A stretch of 20,382 nt of DNA, taken from positions 1-20,382 of the IMG/VR virus record IMGVR_UViG_3300033182_000048. One strand, 5' to 3'. The stretch comes from a virus. The translations under genes were made by a program, and so were the position numbers. Of this stretch, positions 5,481-13,522 are shown one piece after another (position 1 is the stretch's first letter; every line of letters begins with the position of its first letter). The notes under the pieces are model-generated. The model searched no databases and was not told the origin of the DNA. It worked only from the letters and a program-made list of their open reading frames with translations.

Positions 5481-5514
5481 ATTGTATTTCCTTTTTTCAC
5501 TAATTTATTATTGA

Positions 5515-5572
5515 TTAACTACTGTTAAATTATATATTAACTATAGTCAAGTTTTATATTGACTTTTGTTAA
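5515..5572. promoter_or_regulatory. Triple operator in the divergent early control region
   Basis: Three copies of a 14-bp palindrome TTRAC-N4-GTYAA lie at 5515-5528 (TTAACTACTGTTAA), 5537-5550 (TTAACTATAGTCAA) and 5559-5572 (TTGACTTTTGTTAA). Start-to-start spacing is exactly 22 bp twice, about two helical turns, as for cooperative phage repressor sites. They fill the region between the SSB gene and the rightward regulator operon. A leftward -35 (TTGACT, complement of 5545-5550) lies in site 2, with a weak -10 position in site 1; a rightward -35 (TTGACT, 5559-5564) lies in site 3. The likely ligand is the HTH protein encoded at 5810. Confidence 0.8.
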
Positions 5573-5587
5573 TAAAACAAATATAGA
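5559..5587 (+). promoter_or_regulatory. Rightward early promoter
   Basis: TTGACT at 5559-5564 and TATAGA at 5582-5587 are separated by 17 bp, a good sigma70-type promoter. The -35 lies inside the third operator, so a bound repressor would block it. The expected start (about 5594) falls at or next to the ATG at 5595, so the first message may be nearly leaderless. Confidence 0.6.
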
Positions 5588-5594
5588 ACAATTT

Positions 5595-6246: not shown

Positions 6247-6295
6247 TTGACTACATCTTATTTCTGAAGTAAAAAACAAAATTAACTAAACTTAA
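6247..6295 (+). promoter_or_regulatory. Promoter with operator-like site ahead of the DUF1376 gene
   Basis: TTGACT at 6247-6252 and TAAAAA at 6270-6275 are 17 bp apart. Immediately downstream, 6282-6295 reads TTAACTAAACTTAA, one base away from the TTAAC-N4-GTTAA palindrome, at the expected transcription start and directly before the ATG at 6297. It would place replication genes under the same regulator; the mismatch lowers confidence. Confidence 0.45.
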
Positions 6296-9556: not shown

Positions 9557-9854
9557 ACGAAAAGAGCCAGAACTATATACCTACGATAAGTATGAATGTT
9601 GGTGGGAGGATCATTCATCTGATTGTGAATGGAAAGACATTAAAGAAGCAGAAAAAGATAAACCAGAAATATGTTTTACTGAAGGTTATCTATTAAAAAA
9701 AGATAAAGATTGTCATATCTTCGTTATGTCATTTTCACATAATCAGATAGGTGATGAAATGATTGTTGCTAATAAAAATATACTAGAACTTAAAAAGGTG
9801 GGTACAAAAACATTTTACGTAAAAGACTTTCAATATGGCACGTACAAAAACTAA
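9537..9854 (+). CDS. Hypothetical 105-aa protein
   Basis: Starts MAYKKRKRKEPELYTYDKYE, continues with a tryptophan- and acid-rich stretch (CWWEDHSSDCEWKDI) and a beta-rich C-terminal half with alternating hydrophobics (EMIVANKNILELKKVG). It resembles small, SH3-like single-domain proteins of phages (WWEDHxS...W..) but I do not recognise a family. It overlaps both neighbours by 20 nt, so it belongs to the replication operon. A nucleic-acid or protein binding role would fit the basic N-terminus. Confidence 0.7.
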   Translation: MAYKKRKRKEPELYTYDKYECWWEDHSSDCEWKDIKEAEKDKPEICFTEGYLLKKDKDCHIFVMSFSHNQIGDEMIVANKNILELKKVGTKTFYVKDFQYGTYKN

Positions 9855-10137
9855 ACACGAAAAAATCCATATGCAGAAAGTCGCTGATCTTGGATGTATC
9901 ATTTGTCGTAAGATGGGATTTCCAGATAGCCCCGCTGAACTACACCATATCAAAGACAAGACAGGCATGGGTAAGAAAGCTAGTAATCTAGAGGTTATTC
10001 CTCTATGCCCAAATCATCACAGACATGGTAAAGATGCTTATCATTCAAGCCCAAAAGAATTTACAAAAAAATGGGGAACTCAAAGAGAGTTGTTGACAGA
10101 AGTATTAACATATGTTAATTGTTGTGGTAAGTGCTAA
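9835..10137 (+). CDS. Ref-like HNH nuclease (RecA-dependent nuclease family)
   Basis: A 100-residue HNH protein: C21 and C24 in LGCIICRKMG, H37-H38 in LHHIKDKTGMG, and LCPNHHRHGKDAYHSSP with C58, H61 and H62, then FTKKWGTQRELL. The order C-x2-C / LHHI / PLCxxHHxxGxxxxHxxPxxFxxxxGTQxxLL is that of Ref-type nucleases, best known from phage P1, which cut DNA at RecA-formed displacement loops. The protein here is only the C-terminal catalytic domain, without Ref's N-terminal region. A perfect operator-like palindrome lies in its last codons (10105-10118). It is the last gene before a non-coding gap. Confidence 0.85.
   Translation: MARTKTKHEKIHMQKVADLGCIICRKMGFPDSPAELHHIKDKTGMGKKASNLEVIPLCPNHHRHGKDAYHSSPKEFTKKWGTQRELLTEVLTYVNCCGKC
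10105..10118. promoter_or_regulatory. Operator-like palindrome inside the HNH gene
   Basis: TTAACATATGTTAA is a perfect copy of the TTAAC-N4-GTTAA palindrome, extended to 16 bp by a flanking A and T. It lies in the 3' end of the HNH coding sequence, 12 bp after a TTGACA at 10093-10098. It may regulate an internal promoter for the gene at 10247, or be a chance match fixed by coding. Confidence 0.45.
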
Positions 10138-12614: not shown

Positions 12615-12628
12615 TTAACTAAAGTTAA
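12615..12628. promoter_or_regulatory. Operator palindrome over the leftward accessory promoter
   Basis: TTAACTAAAGTTAA is a perfect copy of the palindrome seen at 5515-5528. It covers the -10 and start of a leftward promoter: -35 TTGACT (complement of 12648-12653), a 17-bp spacer, and -10 TATTAA (complement of 12625-12630). A bound regulator would shut off the DUF3846 operon. Confidence 0.75.
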
Positions 12629-12653
12629 TAAATTAATTTAATTGCAAAGTCAA
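12625..12653 (-). promoter_or_regulatory. Leftward promoter for the DUF3846 operon
   Basis: On the minus strand TTGACT (12653 to 12648) and TATTAA (12630 to 12625) are exactly 17 bp apart, a near-consensus sigma70 promoter; the operator at 12615-12628 overlaps its -10. Confidence 0.6.
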
Positions 12654-12670
12654 CTCCTTTAGTTTAGAAT
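12642..12670 (+). promoter_or_regulatory. Rightward promoter for small terminase
   Basis: TTGCAA at 12642-12647, a 17-bp spacer, and TAGAAT at 12665-12670. It shares its core with the leftward promoter, so the two are face to face. Start would be about 12677, three bases before the terminase ATG at 12680, so the AGGTG at 12671-12675 would be partly upstream of the RNA. Confidence 0.45.
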
Positions 12671-13108: not shown

Positions 13109-13522
13109 CCTTTAATCCTCCATATCTCATCATACAGACACATAAGACGTATATCACGACACTTACCCAAGCCACTTACATTCTCCCATATTGCTTCAAA
13201 TAATCCCACAAGAACTATAAATAAACGATCTTCCCACACACTCACACGCCCTGCCAAGCAAGGTTTCAGCGCCCTCTGGTGCGTGTTGCGTGGTCTTGTT
13301 TTATGTAAATGGCCATCATTATCCTCTTATTACTCCCATAGCTAACAATATAGAAAGCAATGTACTCGTTTTGTTCTAATGAAGGCCAAAATCAGACCCC
13401 CACCCCCCAAAAACATTTTCAGTATAATTAACAATGGATTACTCCGCATAGCGATTGGTATTTTTATATATTAACCTAAGTTAATAGCTTGAATATGTGC
13501 TAAAAAAAAGTTATTGCTAACT
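13109..13522. other. Gene-free stretch between the terminase subunits
   Basis: Over 400 bp without a convincing gene in either strand. The plus strand is C-rich and poor in G over long runs (cccacacactcacacgccc around 13225; CAGACCCCCACCCCCC at 13394-13409). A hairpin GCGCC-CTCT-GGTGC lies at 13269-13282. Operator palindromes lie at 13471-13484 and 13517-13530. A gene this size could be missed only if highly unusual. Being next to the small terminase gene, it is a candidate packaging (pac/cos) or origin region, or a non-coding RNA; I see nothing that decides. Confidence 0.6.
13471..13484. promoter_or_regulatory. Operator palindrome upstream of the large terminase unit
   Basis: TTAACCTAAGTTAA, a perfect copy of the palindrome, flanked by A and T to give 16 bp of symmetry. 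It lies 52 bp before the small gene preceding large terminase. No clear sigma70 promoter of good score is visible around it (TTGAAT at 13489 with a weak -10 at 13512). Confidence 0.65.

Follow-up and report, generated by a model that had tools for sequence, protein, structure and literature searches.

Gene blocks of the window and relationship to Baldr

The stretch of DNA analysed here (the window, 20,382 bases) is part of a viral genome and, like all virus records used, of unstated completeness. Its open-reading frame list falls into four gene blocks: L1 runs leftward from 5480 to 137, R1 rightward from 5595 to ~10730, L2 leftward from 12595 to ~10828 and R2 rightward from 12680. Between L1 and R1 lies a compact array of three predicted operators, O1, O2 and O3, and further copies, A and B, lie at the start of leftward operon 2 and ahead of the terminase-large/structural operon, respectively (Table 1).

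Table 1. Genes, predicted operators and putative promoters of the two control regions (window coordinates)
Feature	Sequence	Position	Strand	Remarks
First gene of leftward operon 1, 203 aa		4869-5480	-	no assigned function; SD present
Operator O1 (predicted)	TTAACTACTGTTAA	5515-5528	none	over presumed leftward -10 and start
Leftward promoter PL (putative)	TTGACT 5550-5545, 17 bp, TAACAG 5527-5522	5522-5550	-	
Operator O2 (predicted)	TTAACTATAGTCAA	5537-5550	none	right arm is leftward -35, TTGACT 5550-5545
Operator O3 (predicted)	TTGACTTTTGTTAA	5559-5572	none	left arm is rightward -35, TTGACT 5559-5564
Rightward promoter PR (putative)	TTGACT 5559-5564, 17 bp, TATAGA 5582-5587	5559-5587	+	
ORF1, 72 aa		5595-5813	+	no assigned function; no SD; presumed leaderless first gene of rightward operon
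Cro-like repressor, 69 aa		5810-6019	+	P22_Cro family; second gene of rightward operon
Operator A (predicted)	TTAACTAAAGTTAA	12615-12628	none	over -10 and start of operon-2 leftward promoter
Operon-2 leftward promoter (putative)	TTGACT 12653-12648, 17 bp, TATTAA 12630-12625	12625-12653	-	
terS promoter (presumed)	TTGCAA, 17 bp, TAGAAT	12642-12670	+	9 nt before ATG 12680
Operator B (predicted)	TTAACCTAAGTTAA	13471-13484	none	4 nt upstream of weak -35-like box
Weak late promoter PB (presumed)	TTGAAT 13489-13494, 17 bp, TATTGC 13512-13517	13489-13517	+	

At the DNA level the nearest match among phage records is Pelagibacter phage EXVC032P Baldr (OQ414636; 25% query coverage, 79.5% identity), and the large terminase is 82.4% identical to that of Baldr and <60% identical to those of the other 416 matched records. 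The annotation of Baldr shows the same four gene blocks, its Cro is 73.5% identical to that of the window and it also has the array, operator A and operator B, differing by one mismatch in each of O1 and O2 and by a displaced ORF1 start with SD-like sequence, a layout shared with relative L077. In the OQ414636 record the locus tags read EXVC031PHodr, no gene is annotated at 31095-31823, the expected position of the leftward 203-aa gene, and the ORF1 homologue is labelled as a PD-(D/E)XK nuclease, which looks wrong. A literature search on Baldr gave nothing relevant among the matches listed. The best explanation of the window is that it holds the early control region of a Pelagibacter-type, lytic-looking podophage.

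A P22_Cro-family protein adjoins the array

The preliminary description had named a 69-aa protein as the one candidate regulator of this DNA. The gene is real, overlapping ORF1 by ATGA, and its product is the sole match to a Pfam DNA-binding regulator among 30 protein entries. Profile comparison makes it a member of the P22_Cro family (Pfam P22_Cro, E 2.9e-10, 40.2 bits, curated cut-off 30.2), and its profile also matches P22 Cro (PDB 1rzs, E 8.6e-6). Structure modelling gave five helices, a single model of the five being confident at a mean pLDDT of 85.9, and 1rzs ranked first, weakly, in a Foldseek search with this model (E 0.34, TM 0.48/0.54). The stretch ISHPAVSKW is invariant in 16 aligned Cro relatives, which agrees with the near-constancy of the operator. 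An alignment scan for more distant Cro proteins returned the same best 80 contigs as an earlier search and none further away.

Predicted operators and promoters of the array

The three sites are 14-bp dyads with the consensus TTRAC-N4-GTYAA, predicted as operators from the letters of the DNA, which span 58 bp in total. Their steps of 22 bp (starts at 5515, 5537 and 5559) and the TTGACT -35 hexamers facing in both directions, all reported in the preliminary description, are found exactly in the window, and its view that two divergent early promoters share a compact set of operators, which overlap promoter elements, is supported. Exact operator sites number six across the window, against a mean of 0.19 in 1000 dinucleotide-shuffled windows, none of which held six or more exact sites or three sites in 60 bp. 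An open scan of the window for dyads (5-mers, spacers 0-12) placed TTAAC-N4-GTTAA first of 13,312 (P 2.0e-6), this is only suggestive because 1 of 30 shuffled windows had some dyad equally good (1.4e-6), and the case for operators therefore rests on clustering and conservation. The other three exact sites (10105, 12615 and 13471) extend the operator system beyond that first described.

Further copies of the site occur inside or next to genes. The exact operator at 10105-10118 lies within the 3' end of an HNH-type nuclease gene (9835-10137). Close relatives (e.g. L001, L002, L003, L005, L008, L010, L011 and L014) have it in a comparable position, and it may reflect coding constraint. A one-mismatch site (6282-6295) stands immediately ahead of the DUF1376 gene start, and Baldr-clade relatives (L064, L074, L077 and Baldr itself, L132:5460) have an exact site ~430 bp downstream of the cro start.

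The -10 of PR ends 7 nt ahead of the ORF1 ATG, the -10 of PL is poor and located inside O1, and the PL -35 in relatives is TTGAC[TA], an arm of O2. The presumed PR and PL starts are ~80 bp apart. Directly after the presumed leftward start (5504-5514) the sequence AATARTAAAT is conserved even in distant relatives. In most ORF1-bearing relatives the distance from the start of the -35 to the ORF1 ATG is 34-39 nt without SD, groups at 46, 62 or 93 nt have SD-like sequence, and groups at 121-131 nt have neither the short distance nor SD-like sequence. SD-like sequence precedes the first gene of L1 in 15/15 and of L2 in 29/29 cases, ORF1 in 3/16, terS in 1/22 and the gene after B in 1/5. Other genes are mixed (exonuclease 2/16, cro 3/9, helicase 6/12, primase 0/3, terL 8/21), so the absence of an SD alone is a weak argument for leaderless transcripts; the near-fixed promoter distance is a better one, and we infer from it that the rightward transcripts are probably leaderless.

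Conservation of the array in relatives

We compared 81 loci including the window, one of which (L001) has no upstream sequence; the other 80 gave 64 distinct 420-bp upstream regions. Allowing one mismatch at most and a spacing of 18-26 bp, three sites were present in 42 regions, at least one spaced pair in 18 and neither in 4. Exact sites numbered 130 in the 64 regions against 1 for the reversed control pattern, these being counts over related sequences and not independent events. Among the 42 three-site regions the O1-O2 gap was 21 (5 regions), 22 (20), 23 (5), 24 (11) or 25 bp (1) and the O2-O3 gap 21 (14), 22 (17) or 23 bp (11), with the 22/22 arrangement in only seven, and in two-site relatives the spacing fell as low as 19. 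Exact 22-bp spacing, true of the window, is thus rejected as a rule because spacing drifts among relatives. The preliminary description had taken loss of the spacing in relatives that retain the promoters as evidence against its reading, and this is partly what we see, the drift still leaving the sites near two helical turns apart. In a distant group (L047, L052, L055, L056, L069, L072 and L076) there is no ORF1 match, cro directly follows its sites and the site spacing is wider.

Most arm positions carried 1.7-2.0 bits of information, the R/Y position 0.75 and the 4-bp core 0.3-0.8, a contrast that stems in part from selecting sites at one mismatch or fewer. In both O2 and O3 the TTGAC arm doubles as a -35 box, and the arms might on that account be kept purely as promoter elements, the dyads being incidental. 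We find this scarcely credible: relatives retain the opposite arms, as well as sites O1, A and B, although these are not the -35 boxes in question, neither shuffling nor the reversed pattern yields such sites, and loss of the non-promoter arms while promoters stay was not seen in the main clade.

Cro was matched in 8 of 16 further records, all eight of which carry 2-5 operators. The eight records with no Cro match are all 11-23 kb fragments, of which five have no operator and three have 1-2. Judged from sequence and gene order, the 69-aa protein is the likely binder of the TTRAC-N4-GTYAA operators. Another protein, the host's or the phage's, could bind them instead with Cro a bystander, given that Cro binding is deduced and that ORF1 and many small genes have no assigned function; the palindrome size fits an HTH dimer, the gene next to the array, and probably the first target of that array, is cro itself, and operators accompany Cro in all eight Cro-positive further records, all of which make this alternative improbable.

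A second divergent control region

In 20 records (window excluded), counting one strand, there were 82 occurrences of the operator pattern and 9 of the reversed control, and many of these records have the array plus two sites ~0.8-0.9 kb apart, matching A and B of the window. For A, an exact site lies ≤200 nt upstream in 66 of 80 terS loci (window included) and is absent in 11 terS loci that have enough sequence. The site sits over the -10 or the start point of a putative leftward promoter, which scores a mean of 9.3/12 against 7.75 for shuffled sequence (29 cluster representatives). A helical phasing between A and the terS start was tried and rejected, the distances (64-66, 75, 80, 87, 97-101, 105 and 121) not being of one phase.

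For B, an exact operator occurs 66-68 nt from the anchor in 53 of 62 anchored regions; at least one of the other nine regions (L299) is a false anchor in coding sequence. Of 24 cluster representatives, 18 have their next open ATG 52-55 bp from B, and in the remaining six the distance is 46 or 58-66 bp. In the main clade a weak box of the form T[TA]G[AC]A[TC] (e.g. TTGAAT, TTGCAT or TAGAAC) follows the operator by 3-4 nt, and in the window the presumed PB -10 stands 5 nt before ATG 13523. The core promoter at B scores a mean of 7.38/12 against 6.89 shuffled, compared with 8.83 for PR and 9.18 for terS. By eye, no consistent partner box was found that would make B the promoter's own -35 or -10. 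A rule suggested by clade L292-L306, in which a strong late promoter appears where the operator is degraded, was not clean; L300-L306 keep a one-mismatch operator directly before the -35.

As B stands over no evident promoter, simple repression does not explain every site, and B would either serve to activate a weak promoter or have some other role. On the first of these readings Cro would have a dual function, repressing via O1-O3 and A and activating the late operon from B, centred at ~-46. The prevailing B-to-ATG distance and the weak box just past the operator favour it; the near-background core score, which exceeds that of shuffled sequence and falls below those of PR and terS, may equally mean that there is no promoter at B, the distance differs in six of the 24 representatives and, counting against activation, we know of no Cro that activates. 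We regard the dual function as tentative and on balance doubtful; it extends the explanation by Cro repression and does not exclude it.

Just upstream of B a conserved module (13395-13470), present in many relatives, consists of C-rich CACCCCCCAAA, TAYAATGGAT and then CCGCACAGCGG-like sequence and is perhaps a packaging site. No RNA fold was detected upstream of B (z 0.95) and no Rfam family in the window. The late-region sites of L340 and L353 have five core bases rather than four (TTAAC-N5-GTTAA or close); the record of L340 (G031) has no Cro match and that of L353 (G020) has one.

Search for a second repressor and an integrase

No tyrosine integrase was detected in 17 records by a search that recovered one in all 14 control genomes, and neither an S24 repressor domain nor an HTH_3 protein over cut-off in 12 records, some of them fragments. 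Weak HTH_3 matches below cut-off occurred in 5 of the 12, all five inside cro by position. A search of genome_contigs (84,980 species) gave no close homologue and three distant relatives, none titled Pelagibacter. The second repressor for which the preliminary description proposed a search was thus not found in these 12 records, and its likening of the locus to a lambda OR/OL region stands for the three operators and divergent promoters and not for a two-repressor switch, which, with no partner, no S24 domain and no integrase found in the records searched, is not supported. A lambda-like lysis-lysogeny switch, with a second repressor encoded beyond the window or of an unfamiliar type, would account for the array geometry and for the distance between presumed starts, since lambda PRM and PR starts are also ~80 bp apart; in view of the integrase, S24, HTH_3 and genome_contigs results we consider it very improbable.

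A proposed Cro-only early shut-off

We favour, at a probability of roughly 70%, an autoregulated early shut-off by Cro alone, in which the dimer would act on O1-O3 and A with no CI-like partner. Host RNA polymerase would fire both early promoters at once, and a dimer of the 69-aa protein, as the sequence suggests, would then bind TTRAC-N4-GTYAA. O3 would overlie the -35 of PR, which serves the operon of ORF1, cro and the replication genes; in PL, the promoter for the 203-aa gene and the exonuclease, O2 would overlie the -35 and O1 the -10. Accumulating Cro would close both early promoters, its own included, and via operator A also the second leftward operon; for activation of the late operon Cro is a candidate through operator B. 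This model is favoured by operators that overlap -35 or -10 elements in PR, PL and the operon-2 promoter, by arms that are kept while the core varies, by the excess of exact sites over the control in the upstream regions, by a P22_Cro protein with an invariant ISHPAVSKW stretch adjoining the array, by the presence of operators in all Cro-positive further records, and by the failure to find a CI-like gene or integrase. The poor PL -10 counts against it, as do the operators in three of the eight records with no Cro match, all fragments. A broader version, in which Cro would time the whole genome by shutting the early and L2 operons and activating the late operon from B, with leaderless rightward transcripts, we think unlikely.

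The protein resembles P22 Cro in being a small HTH protein with both the Pfam and the 1rzs profile match. P22 is temperate and pairs Cro with C2; no C2-type partner of Cro was found here, and the operator half-site presumably differs from the P22 consensus. Lambda OR likewise has three tandem operators about two turns apart between divergent promoters, as do the window and the 42 three-site regions of its relatives. Unlike lambda OR, both window promoters would drive lytic-type operons, CI and integrase were not found, spacing varies among relatives and the operators recur at other operons. Phi-CbK TgrL, an XRE regulator of a Caulobacter phage, is likewise a phage-coded HTH regulator with early expression and is reported to repress host genes (PMC10688885), whereas the sites described here belong to the phage's own DNA. 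How the lytic pelagiphage HTVC027P controls its early genes is left open by a 2025 transcriptome paper in the portion available (PMC12753301). In the partly accessible literature on pelagiphage Cro and on Pelagibacter phage promoters and operators, we found no study of such a circuit.

The P22_Cro protein family is known; new here are an array with no CI, its recurrence at another control region and a possible dual role. Pelagiphages infect the most abundant marine bacteria, and control of their transcription is little described. As an isolate of the same layout exists (Baldr, host HTCC1062), the predictions of the circuit are testable. If the circuit is as proposed, it would show how a Cro-operator array behaves when the lysogeny half is absent, hardly any lytic timer could be simpler than a genome of four blocks under one small repressor, and infection may be timed by a single small protein without lambda's second repressor.
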